From an uncultured Rubritalea sp. (lineage in GTDB: Bacteria; Verrucomicrobiota; Verrucomicrobiia; Verrucomicrobiales; Akkermansiaceae), in the NCBI GenBank assembly GCA_937981665.1, contig CALJOJ010000089.1, positions 1 through 35,520 on the forward strand: a stretch of 35,520 nt of DNA, given 5' to 3'. Below are positions 22,561-35,520 of the stretch, one piece after another (position 1 is the first letter of the stretch; every line of letters starts with the position of its first letter). The notes under the pieces were generated by a model. The model had not been told where the DNA came from, did no database searches, and worked only from the letters and a program-made list of their open reading frames with translations. A program made the translations under genes and the position numbers.

Positions 22561-22713
22561 TGAATCTTGAAAATCTTGCTCATCTAAAGTCACATGAGAT
22601 CCTAGATGTATTTTCCAGCTTTTACCACCTTCATCATGAGGTTTGAGGTACTCATCAGCACTTCTGGGGTTAAGGCTGTGATAGACAGAAAATATATCTA
22701 TCCTGCCACTTGA
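22561..22713 (-). other. Open stretch without start codon between hsdR and tRNA-Leu
   Basis: Between in-frame TAA codons, 51 minus-strand codons are open and read like protein, including YHSLNPRSADEYL and GGKSWKIHLGSH. No ATG, GTG or TTG start is present, and the 5' part overlaps the end of hsdR in another frame. It may be the tail of a gene lost when the island inserted, or chance. The rest of the gap between 22541 and 22697 holds nothing else I can identify. Confidence 0.25.
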
Positions 22714-25700
22714 TTAAGTTCACCTATTTTAGCAAATATACCATCAAGGATGAGCTCGTTGGGGAAGAGGGCTTCTGGTCCTCCGGCATTGATGTTAGTG
22801 AATGGAGCGTTGTAGAGAGCTTCTGTGGTAATTATTCCATTCGCAGTGAGATGAGAGATGATGAGCTCGATAAAACGAATCTGTGCGGATGACATCTCCT
22901 TATTGTTGAGAAACTCAGCGAAGCAGGCTTGGGTGCTTTTTCGGTCCATGCCAACACAGCTACGGATGAATAGAGCTAGGTTTGGCGATTGATTTCGCTC
23001 TAGAAGGTTTTCCAGGAGTTTTTTGCCCTGGTTGTCTGCTATGGCGATAAGCATAAACTCAAGCTCCTTGAGGTCTTGCTGTGTTAGGGCTTTGCCTTCA
23101 CGTAGTTTTTTGATTTCTAGACGACCGAGGTTCTGAGCCAGAGCTGCCTGGACTTTTATCTCATACTGTTGCCCGGTCATCACTGGAGTTTTGATTACGG
23201 AAACTTCTCGCACAGACATCACTTCATCTTTGAAGTTCGTATAGACTGGTGGCTGGTAGCCTTTTTCGATGAGGTGGACGAGGCTACGTAACTTTAAGCG
23301 GATATCCTCTAGTGAATCGAGTGTGATGTCTTCCCAGAATTCAGGTTGTTGGATAGCCTGAATGAGCACGAGCTCGATCTTTACCGCAGGGATATTAGAG
23401 CGTTCTTCTAGCTTGCTAGCTACTTCTAGAATACTATTGCGGAAGGTGCTAAAGCGTCCATTGTCTCCGGTGACAAGAGCTAGCTGAAGCGTTAAAAGAG
23501 TGGCGTCGAACTGCCGCGCTTCTATCTCATCTGGTGGAAGCGTATTAGGGAGGAGGGCGATTTGTTCTGTGAGTGTGGAAATATCTCTGTCTGATAGAGT
23601 TTGGTTCTCCCAGAAAGAGCTTGCCTGCATGGGTTCCAGTTGCTCGCGCTTCATGCGTACTTGGAAATTGTCCATGTTCATGGATTGCACTTCGTCTTGC
23701 AGACATTGTTTAATGCCAGCGAAGGTTCTGGCATCACCATCCTTGGTTTTTCCTTGCAGTGCTGACATTATAGCAACTCGGTTGCGGAAAATACGAGTGC
23801 TTAGAGAGATGCCACCACTTCCAGAAATGCCATCTGGTTTTTCTTCAAAGAAATCGAAGTTTCCACAGAAGTCGAATACTCTGAAGTCCTCCTTGTGTTG
23901 ACCGGGAGCAAAGAGGTTAGGGCAGAGACGAGTTCCTCGTCCGATCATCTGCCAGAATTTAATCTTGGAATAGATCGGTTTGAAGAAGACTAAATTACAG
24001 ACCTCAGGAATATCGATGCCTGTATCGAGCATATCAACGGAGATCGCAATATGTGGCTCTTTGTTAGCGTCGGAGAAATCATCGATCAACGATTGTGGGT
24101 ATTTTTGGTAGTTGTCAATGATACGAGCGAACGTTCCCTTTTTCTCAGGGAAGTGATGGTTGAAGCGTTCTTCGATAAATTCCGCATGAGCGTGATTACG
24201 GGCGAAGATGATGGTCTTTGCTAGGCGGTCTCCACCGTCGACCTTATGTCCATCGGTCATCAGAGTTTGTAGCACGGTGTCCGCTGTGTCTTTGTTGAAA
24301 AGCCACTTATTGACAGCTACTGCATTTACCTTGCGGGGCAAGCCTTCTTCTCTAGCCTTGTCCCCCCAGTCGAGCGATTCCCACTCTTCTTTTTCGTCAT
24401 CAGAAAGCTCGTCATAGGTGATCCCATTACGAGGGAATTTCATGTCGGTAATTTTCCCTGTAGGAGGAACGATGAAGCCATCAGAAACAGCGAGCTCAAG
24501 CTCGTAAGCATCAGTCGGTACCCCAGGTTCTAAGTCGAAGAGTTCGTACGTGTTCTTATCTACTTCTTCACTTGGAGTCGCGGTGAGGCCGACTAGCAGG
24601 GAATCGAAGTATTCGAAAATAGCTCCATACTTTTGGTAAACGGAACGGTGCGCTTCATCGATGATGATGAGGTCAAAGTGACCAGCTGAGAAGCGTGCTT
24701 CTCCATTTTTCACAGAATCGATAAGCCCCATCATGGTGGGGTAGGTGGAGGTGTAGACTCTCCCTTCCTTATCTTTCTCAGTCACGAGGTTGACTGGGCT
24801 GCATTCTGGGAGGTGTGCTTTGAAGGCTCCTGTGGCTTGGTTAACGAGAGAGACACGGTCAGCGAGAAATAGCACATTCTTTGCCCAGTTACATTTTTGT
24901 AGCAGATCTACTAATGCGATAGAGGTTCTGGTTTTGCCTGTGCCAGTGGCCATCACGAGGAGAGATTTACGGCGTTTGGATTTGAAGACCTCACAGATAC
25001 TTGAAATCACCCGTATCTGGTAGTAACGCCCAGCAATATCTTGGTTGAGCTGCTTAGTAGTGAGTTCTTGATGAGAAGACCTACGGTTGATGATGCGTTC
25101 TAATTCATGTTGCTTGTAGAAGCCAGAGACCTTTCGTGCTGGATAGGATAGATCATCCCATAGCCAGGTAGTGTAGCCATTACTATAGAAAATGATAGGG
25201 CGCTGGCCAGTCATGTTCTCTAGGCAGTCTGCGTAGAGTTTGGCTTGCTGTTGACCTACCTTGGCGTCAACGGTTGTGGGTTTGGCTTCTACGACAGCGA
25301 GTGGCTTGCCATCTTGTCCCCATAACACATAGTCCACATCGCCTCGACCTGTTTTGTTAGGCATGCCCTGCACTTCATATTCGGCTACGTTTTCACCCTC
25401 TGGGTCCCATCCCGCTCGTCTTAGTTCCAGATCGATGATGTATTTACGCGTGTCATCCTCTGAGTATTCGTGTGTGTCTGGTATCTGCTCGTTAGCTGCC
25501 TTGGCTGCGGTAAGCTGTTCACGTAGTTGAAGTAGTTCTTTATCGAGCTCCTCGATGTCTTTATCTCGTTTACTTAGCTCTTTGGCAGACTTATCCAGTT
25601 CAGACTCTTGTTCCTTGAGCTTCGCTTTATCTGCAGGACTCGCTTTTGACTGTAGAAAGGGGACTACTTTAGGGTCAAAGCTGATGCCGTTTAGAGAGGA

Positions 25701-26093
25701 TGCGCCTTCCTGGGTATAGGTGCGTGCTGTCCAGTAGAGAAGGTGGTGTAGCTCTTCCACCATTTGCAAGGCTGTGATTTGATAGACAGGGCGGTTACCG
25801 TGAACGGCTTCATTACCATTACGTTGGATCAGTTTGGCTTTTTGAAAAATATTTTCTGGGAGATGATTCTGAAATGTTGGCTCGTGAAGTAGTGCACCTA
25901 GTGTGTGCTCGTAGGGTTCATTCAGTGTTCGTTCGACTCGGTAGAGCTAGCGGACAATTAGCTCTAATGTTCGCCTGCAATGAAAGCAGGCTGCATGAGG
26001 GTCTGCGTAAACGGCACGTTCTGCCAGCTTGGCTGCGTTACCAAAATCAGGGAATTCAGAATTAAGAAAGTCGAAGTTGGAAGGAGTAGCCAT
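22698..26093 (-). pseudogene. hsdR: Type I restriction enzyme R subunit, interrupted by one amber codon
   Basis: HsdR is the ATP-dependent translocase and endonuclease of type I systems. From ATG at 26093 the frame runs 1131 residues with a single internal stop, TAG at codon 49 (25949-25947), in LELIVR-stop-LYRVE. Residues 1-110 match the DUF4145 domain found at the start of many HsdR proteins (MATPSNFDFL..., RNGNEAVHGNR), where tryptophan is usual at the stop position. Full-length numbering then gives the nuclease (GDVD 252-254, VEAK 268-271), Walker A ATGTGKT (382-388), DEAH (479-482), GLTATP and GRGTRLCP helicase motifs, and a helical C-terminus. Re-initiation at TTG 25769 or ATG 25763 would keep all catalytic motifs but lose the N-terminal domain. 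It is last in the operon, 69 bases after the 131-residue gene. It may be inactive, attenuated or a sequencing error. Confidence 0.9.
25947..25949 (-). other. hsdR: In-frame amber stop in hsdR
   Basis: The plus-strand CTA gives TAG at codon 49. The frame is intact for 48 codons before it and about 1082 after it, so one base change (TGG to TAG, or CAG to TAG) explains it. TAG is also the natural stop of hsdR, of the DUF4325 gene and of the autotransporter gene, so genome-wide TAG recoding is unlikely. Confidence 0.92.
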
Positions 26094-26162: not shown

Positions 26163-26558
26163 TTAGGCCAGAATCTCGCGAATCGTTAATAATAATGGTG
26201 CTGGAATATGGTCTTCACTAAAGCGGTAGGCTCCATTAGTAATGTCCGTTCCTTGAAGAGCGGAGAATGCGACTCTCTGCGAGTCATGGATACTTACTGA
26301 AGCTATTTTACGGTAACCACCATACCATTCTAGTGAAATAGCTCCGTCTTTAGGCTCCGGAGCGAACTCAGGATCTGAAATGTCACTAGGTAGAGCCGAT
26401 AAAAACGCTTTCACAGTAGCGATAGTTTGCTCCGATATGGCAGGAGCAGAATCTCCGTCCCAGGCATCTTGAGATACTTCTTTATACAATTCTACAAGAG
26501 CGGCTATAGCATCAAAGCGATTTGAATTTAGAGATATAGCCTTGCTTGGAGTAGGCAC
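26163..26558 (-). CDS. 131-residue protein of the hsd operon, unknown function
   Basis: The frame begins at GTG (26558), 11 bases after the DUF4325 gene's stop, and no ATG lies near. The protein has a helical N-terminus (AALVELYKEVSQDAWDGDSA), a helix before LSALPSDIS, then beta strands AISLEWYGGYRKIASVSI, and a C-terminal helix. There is no signal peptide, membrane segment or catalytic motif. I cannot name a family; small proteins with a WDG...LP...EW pattern occur scattered in accessory regions. Position between the STAS-like gene and hsdR suggests a role in the same switch or an immunity/antitoxin-type function, which is inference. Confidence 0.65.
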   Translation of the reverse strand: MPTPSKAISLNSNRFDAIAALVELYKEVSQDAWDGDSAPAISEQTIATVKAFLSALPSDISDPEFAPEPKDGAISLEWYGGYRKIASVSIHDSQRVAFSALQGTDITNGAYRFSEDHIPAPLLLTIREILA

Positions 26559-26569
26559 GAATGAATGGA

Positions 26570-26884
26570 CTATGAAGGTTGTCTATTGGCTTCGTATTTA
26601 GAAACACCTAGGTCAATAGCAGCTTCTACCATGATCTTCACGATGCCTCGGCAGCCTTTGAACTGTAGCTTTTTAAGTGCTAGTGGGGTATCATGCTCAA
26701 AGAAAAATGCTAGTAATGCATTCATGAATGAGCTGTTAGAGATACGCACTCTAGAGAAATCTAGCACGAGCAGATCACACATATTAAAATAGCCTTCTAG
26801 TGTTTGAACACGAAATTGATAAGCCTCTGATCCATCCGCTAAGCGAGAGCCAAATTCTTCAAAAATATCGATTTCGTGTTTCAT
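26570..26884 (-). CDS. DUF4325-type STAS-like protein
   Basis: A 104-residue protein with the DUF4325 signature: strand LLVLDFSRVRISNSSFMNAL (38-57) followed by alternating helices and strands, as in anti-sigma-factor antagonists. Ser51/Ser52 sit where such proteins are phosphorylated, although phosphorylation here is not shown. The gene overlaps the ATPase gene by four bases (ATGA), so the two are translated together and probably interact as a partner-switching pair. The stop is TAG. The protein is short enough to be a single domain. Confidence 0.8.
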   Translation of the reverse strand: MKHEIDIFEEFGSRLADGSEAYQFRVQTLEGYFNMCDLLVLDFSRVRISNSSFMNALLAFFFEHDTPLALKKLQFKGCRGIVKIMVEAAIDLGVSKYEANRQPS

Positions 26885-27825
26885 GGTGTAAAATTAGCAG
26901 AGTTAGGTGAATTATGCAAGAGTAGTTCTAATTCCTTGGCTTTCATCAAGTAGTGGTCGAAATTCTGGGCGCTGGACTTCTTGAACACTAGGGTTACGAG
27001 AGTTCCTGGTAATCTTTCCTCTGTAGAGCAATGCACAACGCTAGGTTCTCCATTACTATTAGTAGTTACTATTCCGCCTCCACTTGCTATAAGAATACGA
27101 CCTCCCATTAGAGAGGTAATGCGTGAGCTTAATGTGAGGCCTACGCCTTCGTTAGCGGGTTGACCTTTGGAGGATATTTTAGCACCTAATGCTTTGATGA
27201 TACATTGAGAATCTGTACCAGTATTAGCCCATCGGTGTCCTCCGTCAGCGAGACTTTGTTTAATTCCTATTCCACTATCTGCTAGAGCTATTCTTACTAA
27301 GCCGTCTTTAATCGTAGACTGAGCCGAGATATATCCTCCTCGTTGGCTATGCTGTCGAACATTATTGGCTAGTTCTGTAATAAGATACCATGCTGCATCC
27401 CAAAGCCCCGCATTAGGGTGACCATATTCATCACCACCAGGAGCTATGATGTCCGCTATTTTTACTCCTAAAGATTCTGTATCAACAGGGATCGGGCAGA
27501 GAGGGATGAAGCGACCTTTTTCCGAGCGCCGAGTGAAGCCTTCATCATCAGTCTCTATACCACAACATGTCAGCAGATCCATACGTTGGAGATAGGTGAT
27601 TATCGGGCAATCACTGATGCTAGAAACATCAGTGAAGTAGTTTTTTGATTTACGATAGTTGATCCAAGCTGTGATAGCTACTAATCCTGCTGGTGTGATT
27701 CTACGTAATAGACTGAAATCTACATTTACATTCTCGGAGTCACTTACTGAAGCAAGCAGCGGAATGAGATCCATTAGTCCATTGGCATTCACGTGTTGAG
27801 GAATAGTTATTGTCTCCAGCTTCAT
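26881..27825 (-). CDS. STAS-like domain fused to GHKL (HATPase) domain
   Basis: A 314-residue cytoplasmic protein. Residues about 1-90 look STAS-like (VNVDFSLLRRITPAGLVAIT). Residues 140-290 hold a GHKL ATPase: N box ITELANNVRQHS (149-160), G1 box LADSGIGI (181-188) and G2 box NEGVGLTLSS (225-234). No histidine phospho-acceptor (H-box) domain precedes it, so it is more like an anti-sigma-type serine kinase or ATP switch than a sensor kinase. It overlaps the DUF4325 gene by four bases and follows hsdS by 31. Association of such a pair with a restriction locus suggests control of the hsd genes or proteins. Confidence 0.82.
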   Translation of the reverse strand: MKLETITIPQHVNANGLMDLIPLLASVSDSENVNVDFSLLRRITPAGLVAITAWINYRKSKNYFTDVSSISDCPIITYLQRMDLLTCCGIETDDEGFTRRSEKGRFIPLCPIPVDTESLGVKIADIIAPGGDEYGHPNAGLWDAAWYLITELANNVRQHSQRGGYISAQSTIKDGLVRIALADSGIGIKQSLADGGHRWANTGTDSQCIIKALGAKISSKGQPANEGVGLTLSSRITSLMGGRILIASGGGIVTTNSNGEPSVVHCSTEERLPGTLVTLVFKKSSAQNFDHYLMKAKELELLLHNSPNSANFTP

Positions 27826-27856: not shown

Positions 27857-28987
27857 TTATAGTTCTCCTTTAAAGGCTCTGGATTGTAGGGAGGCGAAGA
27901 GGTTGTCTAGCTCATCGAGCTGGGCTTGGCAGCGGGCTTTCTGGACTTCGATTTTTTCGACGATTTTGGCGAATTGTTGTTGGAGTTCGAGAGGGGGGAC
28001 GATGACCAGGAAACTGTTTAAATCTTTAGGTGAAATGTGAGGTATAGTAGTCTCTGTAGGAGCACAATGCCTAACAAAAGCAGGGTGTTGTATCAGTGAA
28101 TATAAGAGTTCTTGATTATAATTAGAATTAGAGCGTATACGAGCTACACGCTGAACAAGAAGAGGTTGTTTTCTTAACTCAGGGACACGTGCTACTTTGA
28201 GACCACCGTTAATCCATGGACGATCCATTGCTAAAGCGATATCACCTTTTTGTAGACGATAACGTTGAAGCTTTGGGTTGCTTTCATCTAGCCAATCAGC
28301 TTGCTCTTTCCAATTGATTCTGCCCAAACCTACATTTATACCGCGAAGTAGTGGAATGCCCTCACCATTAGGTAAATATTGTGCACTCTTAAATGCAAAA
28401 CCTGTTAATATGTTGGCTATAGAAGACATTCTAGTCTCCTCCCAGCCCTTTGGGTTGGTGACAGGGTCGCCGAAGATGTCTAGGAAGGTGGATTGGATGA
28501 GGGAGTCGAGTGCGATGAGGGATTGGCGACGCTTCGCCCGGAGCGCTTCCGCTGCATCCAAGATCGCCGCAATCCGCTTCTGCTCTGCGAGGGGTGGGAG
28601 GGGAATTTCAGCATCAGTAAGATTCCCTAGTTTAATATATTTGATTATTCCTCCAATACTTTGCTCTCGTAATTTGCCTACATAAGTCTCCATAAAATGA
28701 TAAACATAACGTAAATCTAGATGCTCAGATTTTTCTGGTTTAGTTTCAATAATGTAGGTTCGTTGGTAAGCATCAAATTTTCCAGTGTAATATTTAACAT
28801 TTAGATCTCCATTGCCTGCAATGAGAACACATTCACAATCAAAGCTGTAGTTATCTATTTGCAAAGGCTTTCTAGCACATGTAAAAAAAGGATATCTCCC
28901 ATCAGCTGAGCTAGCATTAGCGTCAAGCTTCCCCGTACGAATATTAGTTAGGCTACCTAAATTTACAGAATTTATTATTGAATTCAT
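27857..28987 (-). CDS. hsdS: Type I restriction-modification specificity subunit
   Basis: HsdS recognises the bipartite DNA target and bridges HsdM and HsdR. At 376 residues it has two target-recognition domains (about 1-130 and 186-331), each followed by a conserved helical spacer: PLPPLAEQKRIAAILDAAEA (129-148) with a long helix to 165, and VPPLELQQQFAKIVEKIE (330-347) to the end. The first TRD carries the common YPFFTCARKP pattern. The spacer DNA is GC-rich while both TRD stretches are AT-rich, a mosaic expected from domain exchange. The start ATG overlaps the stop of the YhcG-like gene by four bases (ATGA). Confidence 0.93.
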   Translation of the reverse strand: MNSIINSVNLGSLTNIRTGKLDANASSADGRYPFFTCARKPLQIDNYSFDCECVLIAGNGDLNVKYYTGKFDAYQRTYIIETKPEKSEHLDLRYVYHFMETYVGKLREQSIGGIIKYIKLGNLTDAEIPLPPLAEQKRIAAILDAAEALRAKRRQSLIALDSLIQSTFLDIFGDPVTNPKGWEETRMSSIANILTGFAFKSAQYLPNGEGIPLLRGINVGLGRINWKEQADWLDESNPKLQRYRLQKGDIALAMDRPWINGGLKVARVPELRKQPLLVQRVARIRSNSNYNQELLYSLIQHPAFVRHCAPTETTIPHISPKDLNSFLVIVPPLELQQQFAKIVEKIEVQKARCQAQLDELDNLFASLQSRAFKGEL

Positions 28988-30075
28988 TCCGCATCACCTC
29001 CCAATATTCTCATTTCTTTCTCTAACTCCTCAGCCAGCTCCTGTTCTGTGGGGAGGATGGTTTGGTATTTTGAGGCGAAGAGGTGTTGGTGGTCTTGGAG
29101 GATGGAGTAGCGGGCGATGGCTTCGTTTTTCTCTGAGCAGAGGATGAGTCCGATGGTGGGATTATCATCATTGGCACGGTGGAGATCCTCGTAGATGCGG
29201 ACGTAGCTGTCTAGCTGGCCTACGTCTTGGTGGGTGAGTTTGCCTAGCTTGAGGTCGATGATGACAAAGCATTTGAGGAGGTAGTTATAGAAGACGAGGT
29301 CGATGAAGAAGTGCTCTCCATCTAGCGTGATGCGCTTCTGCCGTGCTACGAAGGAGAAGCCCTTGTCTAGCTCTAGGAGGAAGTTCTGGAGCTGATCGAT
29401 GAGTGAGGTTTCTAGCTCTGCTTCTGTGTAGCTAGCTTTGCTCTCTAGCTGGAGAAACTCTAGCACATAGGGGTCACGTAAGATGTCTTGGGGGCGGAGC
29501 TGGGCTGTCTGTTCTGCGGCTTCTTTTATGAGTGGTTCAGTTTTTTTACTAGAGAGGAGTCTTTCATAATGCAGGGAGTTGATCTGCCTCTCCAGTGCCC
29601 GGGTGGACCAGTGCTCGTCTGCTGCTTCATTCATGTACCAAAGCCGCGCTTTTTCGTCTTTGACCTTGAGCAGATGCCGGTAGTGTGTCCAGCTTAGCTC
29701 TGGGCGAAGTTGAGGAGTTTTGAATTCGTCACTCAGTGGGTGACGAATTGGGGTGTTGTTTTTGAATTCTCCACTCACTGCGTGGAGAATTGGGAATAAT
29801 TGATAGAATTGTCTGAAATACTTCAGGTTGGTCTCACCAAATCCTTTGCCGAAATCAGCTGTTAGACGCTGAGCGAGTTGCTCTAATAGCATTTTCCCGT
29901 AATCTGCTTTTTCTTTACCTCGCTGTTCTTCTTCTACGATGAGGCGCCCTATTTGCCAGTAGGTCTGCACCATGGCGGTGTTGACTGCGGTGCGGATAGT
30001 GGCTCTGGAATCAGAAACCAGGGTGTTGATTTCTGAGTAGAGGTTATCTGGAAGGCTGAGTTCGTGATTTGACAT
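28984..30075 (-). CDS. YhcG/DUF1016-family PD-(D/E)XK nuclease
   Basis: A 363-residue protein. The N-terminal DUF1016 domain (about 10-170) contains YWQIGRLIVEEE and GKGFGETNLKYFRQFYQLFP. The C-terminal nuclease-like domain has FFIDLVFYNYLLKCFVIIDL (256-275), giving Asp259, Asp274 and Lys276 as the likely PD-(D/E)XK residues. Family members are widespread, often within restriction or defence loci, with uncertain biochemical role. Residues about 97-121 are a two-copy 14-residue repeat (SGEFKNNTP / SDEFKTPQ) encoded by tandem palindromes. The gene lies between hsdM (16 bases upstream) and hsdS (overlap). Confidence 0.88.
   Translation of the reverse strand: MSNHELSLPDNLYSEINTLVSDSRATIRTAVNTAMVQTYWQIGRLIVEEEQRGKEKADYGKMLLEQLAQRLTADFGKGFGETNLKYFRQFYQLFPILHAVSGEFKNNTPIRHPLSDEFKTPQLRPELSWTHYRHLLKVKDEKARLWYMNEAADEHWSTRALERQINSLHYERLLSSKKTEPLIKEAAEQTAQLRPQDILRDPYVLEFLQLESKASYTEAELETSLIDQLQNFLLELDKGFSFVARQKRITLDGEHFFIDLVFYNYLLKCFVIIDLKLGKLTHQDVGQLDSYVRIYEDLHRANDDNPTIGLILCSEKNEAIARYSILQDHQHLFASKYQTILPTEQELAEELEKEMRILGGDAE
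29722..29792. repeat. Two tandem palindromes inserted in frame in the YhcG-like gene
   Basis: AATTCGTCAC/GTGACGAATT (arms 29723-29732 and 29740-29749) and AATTCTCCAC/GTGGAGAATT (arms 29765-29774 and 29782-29791) are perfect 10-bp inverted repeats, each with a 7-base loop. The copies are 42 bases apart, exactly 14 codons. The two stems differ at matching positions in both arms, which points to selection for pairing or to expansion of a structured element. Confidence 0.9.
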
Positions 30076-30091
30076 AGGAAATATGAAAACT

Positions 30092-31579
30092 TTATTTAAG
30101 AGTGGATAACATTTTTTTAAGCTCTTGTGAACCTTGTAGGATTTCCTGATCTAGATTTTCAATGTTCTTTAGAATTTCAGCAGGGGCTTCATATACTGTT
30201 TCTTCATAGATGATTTCCTTGTAGCGGTTGATGGAGAGGTCGTAGTCGTTGGCTGCGATGTCTGCCTTGGGGACGAGGAAGCTCTGGTCGGTGCGTTTGC
30301 GGTCGGCTTCTGCATCGAGGTTATTCCAGCGCTGGAGGAGGTCTGGGAGATCGCTGGTTTCTAGCTCGTTGCGTTTGTCATCGAGGCTGTAGCCATCTGA
30401 CTGCATGTCGTAGAACCAGACGTTATCGGTGCCGCCTGAATTGGTCTTGGTGAAGAAGAGGATGGCGGTGGATACGCCTGCGTAGGGCTTGAAGACACCG
30501 CTCGGCATGGAGACGATGCCATCTAGCTTCTGGTCTTCGACAAGCATTCTGCGGAGTTCCTTGTGAGCCTTAGAGGAGCCGAAGAGCACCCCGTCTGGGA
30601 CGATGACTGCGGCTCTGCCACCTGGCTTGAGCAAGCGGAGGAATAGGGCTAGGAAGAGGAGTTCTGTCTTCTTGGTCTTGACCACCTTGAGCAAGTCCTT
30701 GGCGGTGGACTCGTAGTCGAGACTGCCTGCGAATGGTGGGTTCGCTAAAATGAGGGAGTATTTCTCCTCGTCAGCAGCATTGGCTTCTTCTAGTGAGTCC
30801 TTGTAGCGGATGTCAGGGTTTTCAATCCCGTGGAGTAGCATGTTCATGCTGCCGATACGGAGCATGGTGGTATCGAAGTCATAGCCAAAGAAGGTTTCTT
30901 CAGAGAAGCGTTTGATCGCGTTCTTATCTCTTGCGATGTCTGTGCCGTGGTGTTGCTGGAGATACTCAGCTGCTGAGACGAGGAAGCCACAGGTGCCACA
31001 AGCTGGGTCACAGATGGCATCCTTAGGGGTGGGAGCAGTCATATCGACCATTAACTTAATGATGTGGCGAGGTGTGCGGAACTGCCCGTTCTTGCCTGCG
31101 GAGGCGATCTTACCGAGCATGTATTCGTAGAGGTCACCCTTGGTGTCCTGGTCTGCCATGTCGATGCCATCTAGCTGATCGACTACATTGGCAAGTAATG
31201 ATGCTTTAGGGAACATGAACATGGCGTCTTTCATGTGATGAGCGTAGGTAGAATCTTCAATCCCAGGCTCAGCTGAGGCTCCGAGGTTCTTGATGAACGT
31301 GAATGCTTTATCACGGATCAGCTCGAACATTGGCTCAGGTGCGAGGTCACGGAAGCGGGACCAGCGGAGTTCTTGCTGATTCTCAGAGAATACAGGGTTT
31401 TCTAGAGGCTTCTTAAGACGGTTGGCCTTGTTCTCTGCGAGGGTGTGGAGCTCATCAAGCCGCTTGATGAAGAGCAGGTAAGTAAGCTGCTCGATAACGG
31501 TCAGCGGATTCGCAATCCCACCCGTCCACATCGCTTCCCAGATGCGGTCAATATTTGATTTAAGTTCTCCTGTGATCAT
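30092..31579 (-). CDS. hsdM: Type I N6-adenine DNA methyltransferase subunit
   Basis: HsdM transfers a methyl group from S-adenosylmethionine to adenine in the HsdS target. The 495-residue length is typical. It has the N-terminal helical HsdM domain (about 1-150), the SAM motif I DPACGTCGFL (191-200) and the catalytic motif IV NPPF (280-283), then VPDGVLFGSS and LDGIVSMPSGVFKPY. All key motifs look intact, so methylation should be functional with HsdS. The start ATG is 11 bases after the response-regulator gene and the YhcG-like gene follows after 16 bases. Confidence 0.95.
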   Translation of the reverse strand: MITGELKSNIDRIWEAMWTGGIANPLTVIEQLTYLLFIKRLDELHTLAENKANRLKKPLENPVFSENQQELRWSRFRDLAPEPMFELIRDKAFTFIKNLGASAEPGIEDSTYAHHMKDAMFMFPKASLLANVVDQLDGIDMADQDTKGDLYEYMLGKIASAGKNGQFRTPRHIIKLMVDMTAPTPKDAICDPACGTCGFLVSAAEYLQQHHGTDIARDKNAIKRFSEETFFGYDFDTTMLRIGSMNMLLHGIENPDIRYKDSLEEANAADEEKYSLILANPPFAGSLDYESTAKDLLKVVKTKKTELLFLALFLRLLKPGGRAAVIVPDGVLFGSSKAHKELRRMLVEDQKLDGIVSMPSGVFKPYAGVSTAILFFTKTNSGGTDNVWFYDMQSDGYSLDDKRNELETSDLPDLLQRWNNLDAEADRKRTDQSFLVPKADIAANDYDLSINRYKEIIYEETVYEAPAEILKNIENLDQEILQGSQELKKMLSTLK

Positions 31580-31590
31580 CGGTGTGATGT

Positions 31591-32796
31591 TTATAGCTTG
31601 GTTATCGGCTCGATTGCGACTGTTAAATCAGTTCTTTTGTTGTGAGGTTTTGTAAGTGTTTCAATGTTATCATTCTTACTGATTTTATATTTTTCTACCA
31701 TATCTTTATAGATTATAACATGTTGGAATTTACCGTTTACTAGGTCATGATTAAAATGAGCATTTCCATAATCATCAATGTTTTCAATCAGACCATTCAT
31801 TACGAGATTTTCATCATCTTTAAGCTCTTCAATCTCAATATCTGCATCTGTGTTTCTTATCCAATTAGAGAAGTATTCTAGAACAACTAGAAGATTCTGA
31901 GTTGTTGATTCTACAAGACTTTTGTGTGATGTATACTTGGTGGCTTCTGAAATTGAAAAGCCCCAGTCCTCTAGGCCAGTGTTGTGCCCATCATTAGATC
32001 CTAAGCCGTAAATAGAGCGCATTAGGTAGGAAATAGTTGAAGCAATACGCTTTCCATTCCTGAGCTTTATAGAACGACCACTACGGTCAGTGATGATTTC
32101 TCCAGAGATGAGTCTTTGGCAATTTTGTGAAATGGCAGCCTTCTTAATAGAATTGTAGATTATAGGTTCAGATCGATCTAAAATATTCTTCCTAAATAAT
32201 TCTTCCAAAATACCGTCTAATATCACTCTCATGGACAAGAATGGCTCATTCTGAACAAGAATATTTTGATCAATTTCTTTAAGAATTCTAAGTAGATTCT
32301 TAGAGTCATCGCTATTGAATCCTTTTGAACTCAGAAATGAAAACTGTGGTTCATATCTTTTCTTGATTTGAGTTTCCTTACGCTTGCTAATCTCTTTGAG
32401 GAGATATTCAAAACACTCATCTTGTTGTTTAGCTTTAAGTTTACTAAATACCTCCATTCCGGGAATAGGCTGTTTAAATGCAGCTAGACCTTCTGATGAA
32501 GTAATGCTCGGCATAGCTGTAAAAACAGCACAAGGAAGACCTAGATCATGGAGTTGGATGATCCTATCTCTAACCATATAAAATCCATCTGCAGTGTCAG
32601 CCTCAGTAGATGATTCAATAACACCTCTAACATCTAATAAAATGGCATCATAACTTGATATCCTATCACTGTTTAGTTCACGGAGAACAGAATAAGCTTT
32701 ATCAAAATTAACTAGCTCACACTGGTGAGTTTCCAGAGCTTCTTCTATAAGGTCATCATCAGGCTCATTTTCGAGCCATAGTATTTTATAATTCAT
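31591..32796 (-). CDS. Response regulator with HsdR-N-terminus-like output region
   Basis: A 401-residue protein. Residues 1-130 are a receiver domain: acidic pocket LENEPDDD (8-15), phospho-acceptor Asp55 in ILLDVRG, Thr93 in AVFTAMP and Lys119 in EVFSKLK. No DNA-binding domain follows. Instead residues about 180-315 are helical and show the same order of motifs as the DUF4145 domain of HsdR: MRVILDGILEELF, then YLMRSIYGLGSNDGHNTG, then a LVESTTQNLLVVLEYF helix. A HEPN-like fold is possible (Arg260, His271), which is inference. A C-terminal segment (330-401) is a separate beta-rich piece. It lies 3 bases after the kinase gene and is surely its partner. Confidence 0.82.
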   Translation of the reverse strand: MNYKILWLENEPDDDLIEEALETHQCELVNFDKAYSVLRELNSDRISSYDAILLDVRGVIESSTEADTADGFYMVRDRIIQLHDLGLPCAVFTAMPSITSSEGLAAFKQPIPGMEVFSKLKAKQQDECFEYLLKEISKRKETQIKKRYEPQFSFLSSKGFNSDDSKNLLRILKEIDQNILVQNEPFLSMRVILDGILEELFRKNILDRSEPIIYNSIKKAAISQNCQRLISGEIITDRSGRSIKLRNGKRIASTISYLMRSIYGLGSNDGHNTGLEDWGFSISEATKYTSHKSLVESTTQNLLVVLEYFSNWIRNTDADIEIEELKDDENLVMNGLIENIDDYGNAHFNHDLVNGKFQHVIIYKDMVEKYKISKNDNIETLTKPHNKRTDLTVAIEPITKL

Positions 32797-32799
32797 AAT

Positions 32800-35265
32800 T
32801 TAATCTGCTAAAGGTAAGAAAATATCAATAGAAAAAGGAAATTGATCAGTTCCATTTGTTTCCACTTTAATGAAGCCTCCTGCATCTCGAACTGCTGAAC
32901 AAACGTCAGCACCTCCCATGCCAGTGTTGGCGGTTTTCCCTGCGGAAAGTGACTTAGCACAATAGAATTCAGTATCTACACCTTTAGGTAAAGGAGCTCC
33001 GTCATTTTCAAAAATTAAATGACAATATGCTCTTCCATCAATTTCAGTATTTACTACTGTGATTCTAAACTCATACTTTTTTCCATCATCTTTAAATCCA
33101 TGTCTGACGGCATTGCTGAAAATGTTTTCTATAATCTTATGTTCTAAATCTGAGACGCATATTTCTATGTTCACCATGGAGTCTTGCTCTTTATCAGCTA
33201 GTGCTAGATAACGAGAGACGATATCATCAATATTGATAAATATATTCGAGTAATCCTGCCTAGCTGCCCAATGTTCTAGAAATTCGACTATGTCAATAAC
33301 CTCTACAGGCTCTTTGTCTGTTACTAGTTTACCAAGGTTCTCTATCATTGTTTCGTTGGAGAGAACTGATTGATAGAGTTTTTGGCTGCGCTCCTTTGCT
33401 TTTTCAATGCGTGATGTTTCATCGGAGTTGAGGTCTGCTATCAATCGCTTGACTGTATTTCTCATCTTTAAAAGTGAATTACCTAATGTATGAAGCTGCG
33501 AGTTTGTATCGTTGATGAATTGTTGCTTTAAAGCTTTTATTTCATCTTGAAGACCCTGTTCTCTAATAATAGACTGAAAACGTAACTGTTTTGCCTCACG
33601 AATTGCATTTTCCTGAATTTCTTCGATTATGCTTTGTGATACAGCAAGAGAAGGAATGGTAATATGGAGTCTTAAAAAACTTCTCAGATTAAATCTAGGA
33701 AGAGCTGCTCCGACTATTGAAGAACCTAATTGATTTAGAATACGTTGATCTCCAAGTCTCAGCATTAAATACTCTGGTTTCACTCTCACAGTATTAACTT
33801 TGAGTATTAAAATATCACGAGTGACGACGATTTGCTGATTATCTGTAGGGTGATAATAGGCTAGCTTCAGCTCCTTGTTCAGGATTGAAGACACCAGCAA
33901 ACAGGGCTCACAGACTGTCTGAAAATTTCTGAGCCTGTCAATATTGGATGCAGGATCAAAATTTTCACAGTGATTAAAATCCTGATGTTCTAATCTTGAT
34001 CCACCTTCAAAGTCTTTAGCTGACACTTTTAGGTAGCTTTGTCCCATGATGGGGATTTGAGGACGGATACGTTGGATTATTGAAGATAGCGAAATGGACT
34101 CATGGTTAAGAGGTATAGGGTCATCAAATTGAAGGCTATACTCTGCGCCAAATAAGCTGAATTCATTTTCATAAATCACTTCCTGTGGCGTATTGATAGC
34201 AGTGTGATCTTTAGAAGATTCACCATCAGAGAGCTCCGTTAAAGCACGAACAATAGCATCTAAATCGATAATTTTTTTTCTAGATGATAAATTAACGTAG
34301 TGGTCCCGGCTATCTATAAAAGCAACATGGTTACTATTATTTTTCTCAATAAATACTAAGCTAGTAGCTATTCCCGAATTACTAAAGATGCCTGCGGGTA
34401 AATTAATTACAGTGTGAACTAGATTATTCTTAATCAAATACTGACGGATTAATCTATAGCTTCTGCTGCTGCTGGTTAGAAAACCATTAGGGACTAGAAA
34501 TACAGCCCTGGATCCTTCTTGATAGTCTTCTAAAAATTCTAGCATTTCCAGCTGAAGAGCATCTCGCGGAGTAATAGTATCAAAGAATAATCTAGTTTGA
34601 TCTTCGTTGACTCTCAACCCAAATGGAGGAAATGAAATCAGATCTTTAGCGCGTTGAGGTTCCTTACTATCAAAGTTGACATTAAGGTCAAAAATTAGAG
34701 AAAGCAGCTCGATAAGAAAATTTATTTGAGGATTAATTGATTGAAAAATAACAGGTGTTGAAAAGCTCTTTAAATCATCGATATCAGGCATTAAACCGCT
34801 ATTGATAATTGTGACCTGACTATTCGAATTACTCCATATTGAGTCTATTAAGTGCAGTAGATTCTGAGGGCATGGGATAGCGGAACTAGCCATACCAGAT
34901 CTGCCGGTCATTATTAGATGCCGATATAATTCTTTGTAGAATTCTTTAAATTCATAGTAGGTAGAAAAGTTATAGTCATCTAAAATACTTATAATCTTTG
35001 GATACAATACTTCTGTATTTGAATTGAAAAAATATTTAGGGTTAGTAACTAATTCACCCCTACACAAATGTGTATCAATAAGCTGAAAGAGTTTACTATA
35101 ATCTGAACTAGGTTTTGCTCCTGACTCCTTCAGAAGCCCAATTACTCCCACAATAGAAACAAGTTCGATTTCGTTACGAAAAATATGAGATTCTTTGCGT
35201 AGATTCTCTAAAAAATCACGAACTAAGTTATATGGGCTGAAAGTTTTGGAATTTTGCATAGTCAT
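32800..35265 (-). CDS. Hybrid histidine kinase with degenerate HsdM and HsdS-like input domains
   Basis: An 821-residue protein. Residues about 80-345 align by motif order with HsdM: CPQNLLHLID, then LISFPPFGLRV in place of NPPF (211-216), and FLVPNGFLTSSSRSYRLIRQ plus LPAGIFSNSGIATSLVF. The SAM motif DPACG is missing and the catalytic Asn is Phe, so methylation is unlikely. Residues 390-555 resemble an HsdS target-recognition domain (SLSSIIQRIR, YLKVSAKDFEGG, VRVKPEYLMLRL, IPSLAVSQSIIEEI). A coiled coil leads to a dimerisation helix with the likely phospho-acceptor His592 (LHTLGNSL). The HATPase domain has N box IIENIFSNAVRHG (711-723), FENDGAP (752-757) and NTGMGGADV (780-788). There is no signal peptide or membrane segment, so it is cytoplasmic. 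It is first in the operon and AT-richer than hsdM. Confidence 0.85.
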   Translation of the reverse strand: MTMQNSKTFSPYNLVRDFLENLRKESHIFRNEIELVSIVGVIGLLKESGAKPSSDYSKLFQLIDTHLCRGELVTNPKYFFNSNTEVLYPKIISILDDYNFSTYYEFKEFYKELYRHLIMTGRSGMASSAIPCPQNLLHLIDSIWSNSNSQVTIINSGLMPDIDDLKSFSTPVIFQSINPQINFLIELLSLIFDLNVNFDSKEPQRAKDLISFPPFGLRVNEDQTRLFFDTITPRDALQLEMLEFLEDYQEGSRAVFLVPNGFLTSSSRSYRLIRQYLIKNNLVHTVINLPAGIFSNSGIATSLVFIEKNNSNHVAFIDSRDHYVNLSSRKKIIDLDAIVRALTELSDGESSKDHTAINTPQEVIYENEFSLFGAEYSLQFDDPIPLNHESISLSSIIQRIRPQIPIMGQSYLKVSAKDFEGGSRLEHQDFNHCENFDPASNIDRLRNFQTVCEPCLLVSSILNKELKLAYYHPTDNQQIVVTRDILILKVNTVRVKPEYLMLRLGDQRILNQLGSSIVGAALPRFNLRSFLRLHITIPSLAVSQSIIEEIQENAIREAKQLRFQSIIREQGLQDEIKALKQQFINDTNSQLHTLGNSLLKMRNTVKRLIADLNSDETSRIEKAKERSQKLYQSVLSNETMIENLGKLVTDKEPVEVIDIVEFLEHWAARQDYSNIFINIDDIVSRYLALADKEQDSMVNIEICVSDLEHKIIENIFSNAVRHGFKDDGKKYEFRITVVNTEIDGRAYCHLIFENDGAPLPKGVDTEFYCAKSLSAGKTANTGMGGADVCSAVRDAGGFIKVETNGTDQFPFSIDIFLPLAD

Positions 35266-35388: not shown

Positions 35389-35520
35389 ATGGATTCGATT
35401 CTACAGAAAAATGGTGTTTCAACTGATAGGCTATTATCGCTCTGCTCTATTGATGAGCTTGGAGGTATCTCGAAGGCTGCTGAGAAGAGTGGGAAGAGTC
35501 AGAGTCTTTTGAGCAGACAA
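35389..35520 (+). CDS. N-terminus of a helix-turn-helix transcriptional regulator (partial)
   Basis: Forty-four codons from ATG run off the window end. The sequence LLSLCSIDELGGISKAAEKS followed by GKSQSLLSRQ has the spacing of a LysR-type winged helix-turn-helix (LxxLxxxxxxGSxxxAAxxLxxSQSxxSRQ). The gene is divergent from the nine-gene hsd operon and shares a 123-base promoter gap with it. A regulator of the operon is a reasonable guess, but the gene may belong to the next locus. Its effector-binding domain lies outside the window. Confidence 0.6.
   Translation, partial: MDSILQKNGVSTDRLLSLCSIDELGGISKAAEKSGKSQSLLSRQ

Follow-up and report, generated by a model that had tools for sequence, protein, structure and literature searches.

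A type I restriction–modification locus headed by a kinase fusion

Towards the end of a 35,520-nucleotide stretch of DNA from an uncultured Rubritalea sp. of the phylum Verrucomicrobiota (assembly GCA_937981665.1, contig CALJOJ010000089.1, positions 1 to 35,520; the whole stretch is called the window here), two adjoining genes head a type I restriction–modification (R-M) operon. The first encodes, as the preliminary description of this DNA had stated, an 821-residue fusion protein; its reading frame is uninterrupted on the minus strand, and in it a decayed copy of the type I modification subunit HsdM, a part resembling the specificity subunit HsdS and a histidine kinase follow one another in a single chain. 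The second, which starts three bases after the first, encodes a response regulator. An hsdM with intact motifs, an hsdS and an hsdR reading frame lie further along the same strand (Table 1).

Several profile searches, together with conservation in five relatives (six proteins in all), bear out the order of HsdM core, HsdS-like part, H-box and HATPase that had been proposed from reading the letters. In Pfam, N6_Mtase matches residues 204–375 of the fusion (E 1.5e-17); the methyltransferase profiles of PADLOC match residues 207–372 (8.4e-18), and its type I specificity profiles match at about residues 450–560 (best 8.9e-8). Profile–profile alignment with the HsdM and HsdS proteins of its own and related loci pairs residues 109–384 with HsdM (probability 99.4, E 1.6e-21) and residues 480–548 with HsdS (probability 91, E 1e-6), and homology to both is thus found within residues 80–555, the segment on which the preliminary description had made its reading depend. 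Among solved structures, a five-row profile of the fusion family finds the EcoR124II HsdM (1.4e-24), the HsdS structures 5ybb_D and 3okg_A (about 1e-10) and the histidine kinase structure 3a0r_A (2.8e-9). The core of the target-recognition domain (TRD) is too divergent for a match, the distal part and its helix being what is matched, and there is one recognition unit only. A 19-residue hydropathy scan found no membrane-like stretch in the window fusion, whose maximum is 1.32 versus 2.86 for a neighbouring symporter used as a control (1.65 in the Myroides relative and 1.68 in that of genome G1133). No Pfam match to PAS or GAF is listed for the window fusion or its relatives, and none to STAS for the window fusion kinase.

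An active type I HsdM is recognized by an S-adenosylmethionine (SAM) motif I and a catalytic NPP[FYW], and the fusion has neither, in agreement with the earlier claim that its methylase core lacks the SAM motif and the catalytic Asn. In the profile alignment, motif I of the window HsdM (DPACGTCGF) faces INSGLMPDI and its NPPF faces FPPF. The generality of this loss was assessed at motif IV in 149 aligned matches, reduced to 88 distinct proteins by dropping duplicates, contained copies and rows gapped at that position; proteins were sampled for their similarity to the fusion family, near-identical HsdM were kept uncollapsed, and the sample holds six M–S–kinase fusions, six M–S fusions without a kinase and 76 other proteins. 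The Asn is lost in 11 of the 12 M–S fusions with or without a kinase, namely in five of the six kinase fusions (FPPF, CPPF, IPPF, VPPF, MPPF) and in all of those without one (FPPF twice, YPPF, HPPW, IPPF, FPTW), and NPPF or NPPY is found in 75 of the 76 others, the last having NMPF. As a control for hidden M–S fusions, six of the long M proteins that keep NPPF (765–948 aa as scanned) were checked, and neither Methylase_S nor HATPase_c is listed for them; an intact M–S fusion may exist among the other long M proteins of the sample.

The kinase half has fared differently. The position of His592, earlier named as the likely H-box residue, is His in all six family members, without a HisKA match in Pfam, and N718, N754, G756, G782 and G784 are identical in all six, so that these ATP-binding residues are conserved across homologs; the G1 box begins with Asn throughout. 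A HATPase_c domain with N and G boxes, one mark of a two-component histidine kinase, is therefore present. With the H-box His and the N- and G-box residues kept in six of six proteins and the motif IV Asn lost in five of six, the alignment suggests a kinase held under constraint beside a decayed enzyme.

Pairwise identity over the six family members is lowest in the TRD-like core (13.5%), as expected of a TRD, followed by the M end (15.1%), the SAM half (17.1%), the dimerization and histidine phosphotransfer (DHp) region (17.7%) and the distal TRD (23.6%). A shared target of fusion and cognate HsdS was also considered. When the TRD-like parts were compared by local scores with five HsdS proteins, the cognate pair was never the highest-scoring one (0 of 5 loci), and a same-site reading is not indicated.

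The partner response regulator

The adjacent regulator (31591–32796) had been overlooked in the preliminary description. Pfam gives no good match for it, but it is a receiver-domain protein. A single comparison (E 4e-11) shows its homology to the gene that follows the kinase in Myroides, and a five-row regulator profile weakly matches the response regulator structures 3a0r_B (0.0017) and 1ys6_A (0.0018). In a six-row alignment, all six regulators have the phospho-accepting Asp (D55), a Thr or Ser at the position of T93 and the Lys (K119), and the regulator gene adjoins the kinase gene at all six loci, in one of which it is cut by the contig end. The second mark of a two-component system, a cognate regulator with a phospho-Asp, is thus found in the neighbouring gene. 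Two candidates for its C-terminal half were set aside: a DUF4145/HEPN-like output domain, as at the HsdR N-terminus, was rejected at a profile–profile probability of 0.2%, and no tool supported the OB-fold-like C-terminus that the sequence had suggested on reading.

Table 1. Features of the window discussed in the text, with the basis of each assignment
Feature	Position	Strand	Basis
Pseudo-HsdM/HsdS-like/histidine kinase fusion, 821 aa	32800..35265	-	uninterrupted reading frame, profile searches
HsdM (N6_Mtase) core, SAM motif lost, residues 109-384	34114..34941	-	Pfam, profile-profile alignment
FPPF replacing catalytic NPP[FY], residues 212-215	34621..34632	-	motif IV count
Variable part of TRD-like domain, residues 385-478, least conserved across six family members	33832..34113	-	family alignment
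Distal HsdS-like part and its helix, residues 479-556	33598..33831	-	PADLOC, profile-profile alignment, family alignment
Putative DHp region with H-box, residues 586-660	33286..33510	-	family alignment; no HisKA Pfam match
His592, putative phosphoacceptor	33490..33492	-	His in 6/6 family members
HATPase_c domain, residues 661-821 (N718, N754, G756, G782, G784)	32803..33285	-	Pfam, family profile, alignment
Response regulator, 401 aa: receiver domain (D55, T93, K119; acidic pocket E9-N10-E11) and C-terminal part without recognized fold	31591..32796	-	homology, profile, alignment
hsdM, intact motifs (DPACGTCGF, NPPF)	30092..31579	-	Pfam, PADLOC, alignment
DUF1016/YhcG PDDEXK nuclease-family protein	28984..30075	-	Pfam
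hsdS, two Methylase_S stretches	27857..28987	-	Pfam
GHKL protein, STAS-like N-terminus (by reading), CapK/VapK-like by composition	26881..27825	-	Pfam, reading
STAS-like protein, 104 aa (DUF4325, below cut-off)	26570..26884	-	Pfam
131-aa protein, no Pfam family	26163..26558	-	Pfam
hsdR reading frame	22698..26093	-	in-frame TAG at 25947-25949 near 5' end

Relatives and their loci

Five relatives were found. On plasmid pFM-G13 of Myroides odoratimimus the order is a WYL regulator, kinase, regulator, hsdM, hsdS, a 537-aa protein, a PLD-domain protein and hsdR, and a human-gut record labelled phage (MT835483, L021) has WYL, kinase, regulator, hsdM, hsdS and hsdR. Lentisphaera marina carries hsdR, hsdM, hsdS, kinase and regulator; a contig of 3391 bases from a Lentisphaeria metagenome-assembled genome (MAG) holds only the kinase and the start of the regulator. 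Genome G1133, from the window's own family, has hsdR, a further reading frame, hsdM, hsdS, at least two small reading frames, a 1681-aa protein ending in the kinase, and the regulator. The preliminary description had asked whether homologs always neighbour hsd genes: hsdR, hsdM and hsdS are present at all five loci with enough flanking sequence, the window included. HsdR is of the EcoEI_R_C kind in four loci and HindI-like in Myroides, and the pair is therefore associated with more than one kind of type I system. The kinases are 20–24% identical to the Myroides kinase, and the two from Lentisphaeria are 33% identical to each other.

The 1681-aa protein of G1133 (L100:6664-11709) has a second, more degenerate M-like stretch upstream, matched by an HsdM profile at residues 281–358 (3.7e-8 in a one-protein search) and by Pfam N6_Mtase at 0.02; a BLAST comparison between its halves reaches only 0.29. 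Judged from these matches, it probably contains two dead M–S units in tandem. Two side observations concern the other relatives. MT835483, whose label is Bacteriophage sp., carries genes that on reading resemble those for conjugation in a Bacteroidales element, and the phage label may be wrong; and the 537-aa protein encoded after the regulator in L. marina (L051:9653-11266) resembles, by eye, a P-loop plus a metallo-beta-lactamase fold, Pfam giving no match at E values up to 1.

The genome searches, all within the GTDB phylum of the window, drew on 97, 387, 6, 384, 197, 345 and 288 genomes in overlapping draws. At least three full kinase relatives were obtained in addition to the window one; the large alignment-based draws scored only 2–5 candidates per genome, so that these numbers are a lower bound and absence from a genome is weak evidence. 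No relatives came from a genome-contig search with the window protein, from viral contigs searched with four queries or from plasmids searched with two regulators, and when the C-terminal parts from two of the kinases served as plasmid queries, only Myroides and ordinary kinases came back.

Dead M–S fusions without a kinase

Six proteins, about 562–594 aa long (L022/L074, L030/L075, L050/L076, L077, L084, L087), combine M and S parts and lack both a kinase and the catalytic Asn; they align with the kinase family over profile positions 105–554 (probability 99.9, E 7e-35). An hsdM lies next to such a fusion or one small reading frame away in five of the six cases, overlapping it by 4 bases in L087, and about 4.7 kb away in the remaining one. 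Because dead M–S fusions thus occur near hsdM without any kinase, these sequences suggest that the kinase probably took over an existing dead M–S subunit as its sensor. A 174–176-aa reading frame of similar sequence, compared by eye, follows the M–S fusion in three of four loci inspected. A quick M-domain tree of 59 rows, with HsdM rows picked to hold NPP[FY], was used only for grouping ordinary HsdM; a common origin of the kinase fusions and the M–S fusions was not readable from it, both standing on long branches that meet.

The window HsdM is 42–47% identical to the gut, L. marina and G1133 HsdM, 26% identical to that of Myroides and at most 33% identical to sampled HsdM outside the gut/L. 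marina/G1133 subfamily. Members of its own subfamily that are closer still (71–81% identical) are present at other loci.

Other genes of the window

Between hsdS and hsdR, the GHKL and STAS-like genes form a pair (26881–27825 and 26570–26884) that resembles CapK/CapS or VapK/VapS. The third cargo gene (26163–26558), which belongs to no Pfam family, was not recognized as a PIN toxin. HsdR may be interrupted in the window genome, or the in-frame TAG may be a sequence error. Upstream, 123 bp from the kinase start, a divergent gene with a LysR-type helix–turn–helix begins (35389–35520; HTH_1, 3.4e-4, below the cut-off) and is cut by the contig end.

A proposed mechanism and its alternatives

From the domain homologies, the loss of catalytic motifs, the conserved phosphorelay residues, the pairing of the genes and their linkage to R-M, we consider it somewhat probable that kinase and regulator form a cytoplasmic two-component system, an optional accessory of type I R-M loci, in which half of a type I methyltransferase (M', the dead M domain, plus one target-recognition unit), no longer catalytic, serves as the input. 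Histidine kinases act as dimers, and a dimer of the fusion would carry two M'S units and may resemble a complete M2S2 methyltransferase. The helix closing the HsdS-like unit would lead towards the dimerization and phosphotransfer region, and helices of HsdS are described as a dimerization element in the part of PMC3874165 consulted. The candidate ligands are the active HsdM, a bipartite DNA target in a particular modification state, and an antirestriction protein encoded by a virus or plasmid. Binding of one of them would alter the coiled coil and so switch the autophosphorylation of His592. The phosphate would then pass from His592 to Asp55 of the adjacent regulator, and the phosphorylated regulator would modulate the R-M and cargo genes beside it, or their proteins. 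Most likely, what the dead copy and its kinase report on are substrates or complexes of type I systems, the particular ligand and output being what we infer. The earlier suggestion of a methylase–specificity module used as kinase input is supported in part, through the architecture and the hsd neighbourhood, and any DNA binding, reading of methylation or contact with HsdM by the module is a putative function; the idea that it reads the same site as the cognate HsdS is weakened, not refuted.

Several observations weigh against this interpretation. Matches to two key domains are faint in the window fusion itself, HATPase_c at residues 709–807 (E 1.6e-4) and Methylase_S at residues 491–556 (E 0.035) both falling below their curated Pfam cut-offs. 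Among the five relatives, HATPase_c is above the cut-off in four and has no listed Pfam match in the Lentisphaeria MAG protein; a HisKA-type match is listed for neither the window fusion nor its relatives, and the first N-box Asn is Gln in L. marina. The decay of the methylase is uneven: the Asn (as NPPL) survives in the Myroides kinase together with NPFAGIASF, which resembles motif I, and NPASGLASF and NPACGISSF are kept in the two Lentisphaeria fusions, and SAM binding is therefore possible in these relatives. The TRD-like part was in no case closest to the cognate HsdS, and the contrast in conservation between its core and the other regions is modest. On the regulator side, five proteins have Asp-Asp or Glu-Asp in the acidic pocket, but the window one has Glu-Asn-Glu, with Asn at the second position, and no fold is recognized for its C-terminal half. 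The AlphaFold2 models, made from 3-row alignments, were unusable (mean pLDDT 33.4 for the kinase and 38.3 for the regulator), and the dimer picture is therefore reasoning; a long helix at residues 540–612 appears in the secondary structure of the failed kinase model at a confidence too low to count. The stop in the window hsdR frame means that restriction may be off in this genome. Finally, at four loci with a close HsdM (L078, L079, L080 and L083; L019 lay outside the comparison), the family profiles gave no full-length kinase among the matches listed (best 71) and, in a complete listing, no regulator, and the pair is therefore not needed for R-M function.

What the sensor responds to can be pictured in several ways. 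A more specific version of the two-component reading, which we put forward tentatively, is that the sensor acts as an integrated decoy of the methyltransferase, the kinase dimer rebuilding a dead M2S2 and signalling on unmodified target DNA or on an antirestriction protein, with the phosphorelay choosing between restriction, alleviation and alarm. If DNA alone were read, the M'S dimer would bind its own bipartite target and the state of the kinase would report an unmodified, hemi- or fully modified site, leading to restriction alleviation or alarm. The retention of both M and S parts and the low conservation of the TRD-like core fit such a sensor, as does the known need of type I systems for alleviation at unmodified host sites (PMC11109961, in the part consulted); with the same target as the cognate HsdS not indicated, and DNA binding only putative in a protein with decayed SAM and catalytic motifs, we judge it somewhat unlikely. 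The dead unit might instead act as bait. The M2S core is the binding site of the DNA mimics Ocr and ArdA, and there are other defence systems that sense Ocr; an M–S unit imitating the methyltransferase core that they grip, whose occupation fires the kinase, would account for a lost catalysis with the overall M–S layout kept and for an optional accessory inside a defence locus. A mimic would need a DNA-binding surface that is only presumed here, and this alternative is unlikely.

The M'S unit might also replace HsdS as the partner of the active HsdM of the operon, reporting free HsdM or the intact complex and adjusting R-M expression. The dead M–S fusions encoded near or overlapping hsdM agree with this, and so does the grouping of the gut, L. 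marina and G1133 HsdM with that of the window; the Myroides locus, with its distant HsdM and other kind of HsdR, argues that a fixed partner is not required, and we regard such a titration sensor as doubtful. That the fusion is a relic, a decaying pseudo-subunit devoid of signalling function, might be read from the low identity among the kinases and from the stop in the window hsdR. We consider it very improbable, because decay would not be expected to keep the His, the ATP-binding boxes and an adjacent regulator in six divergent, uninterrupted reading frames.

Comparison with known systems

The fusion shares with the type I methyltransferases EcoR124II and EcoKI an M domain recognizable by profile and an HsdS-like distal TRD and helix, but it differs from them in lacking the SAM motif and catalytic Asn, in its single recognition unit, in the union of M and S in one chain and in the attached kinase. 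With sensor histidine kinases and response regulators such as chains A and B of 3a0r it has in common the HATPase N and G boxes, a putative H-box His and an adjacent Asp/Thr/Lys receiver, whereas its input is a dead restriction enzyme in place of a PAS or GAF match or a membrane-like stretch, and its G1 box begins with Asn. The nearest published work found, as far as the part of PMC8011034 consulted goes, describes HEF_HK (PF19191) and Response_reg_2 (PF19192), likewise a soluble kinase–regulator pair linked to R-M, but mainly to type II R-M and C5 methylases and with no dead methylase input. In our Pfam scans neither family matched the window proteins or their relatives; PF19192 was also unmatched genome-wide, and the presence of PF19191 in the Pfam copy used is unconfirmed.

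No description of the fusion architecture was found among the open-access papers listed, and the parts consulted of PMC7641849 and PMC3710099 contain nothing on it. A figure legend of DefensePredictor, the part of that source consulted, names HATPase and REC domains among predicted systems, and overlap with the fusion pair may exist. Like the present locus, CapK/CapS and VapKSC have GHKL kinases that signal within defence loci (of 443 capKS pairs, 88 lie directly downstream of a predicted R-M system), but they involve Ser phosphorylation of a STAS protein, sensing of single-stranded DNA and no methylase parts (PMC13373217, in the part consulted). Their likeness belongs to the GHKL and STAS-like pair of the window and not to the fusion kinase. 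The Detocs two-component system likewise combines a histidine kinase with a receiver in phage defence, and its sensor is not known to be a methylase.

Significance

R-M systems are usually viewed as stand-alone enzymes with simple regulators. If the proposed reading is true, a phosphorelay with a dead modification enzyme as its input would mean that cells can read DNA modification, or sabotage of it, as a signal, and the control of type I restriction upon entry into a new host or upon methylation failure would become directly testable. Bacterial immunity would also gain a sensor of the decoy type, and two-component systems an input domain of a new kind.

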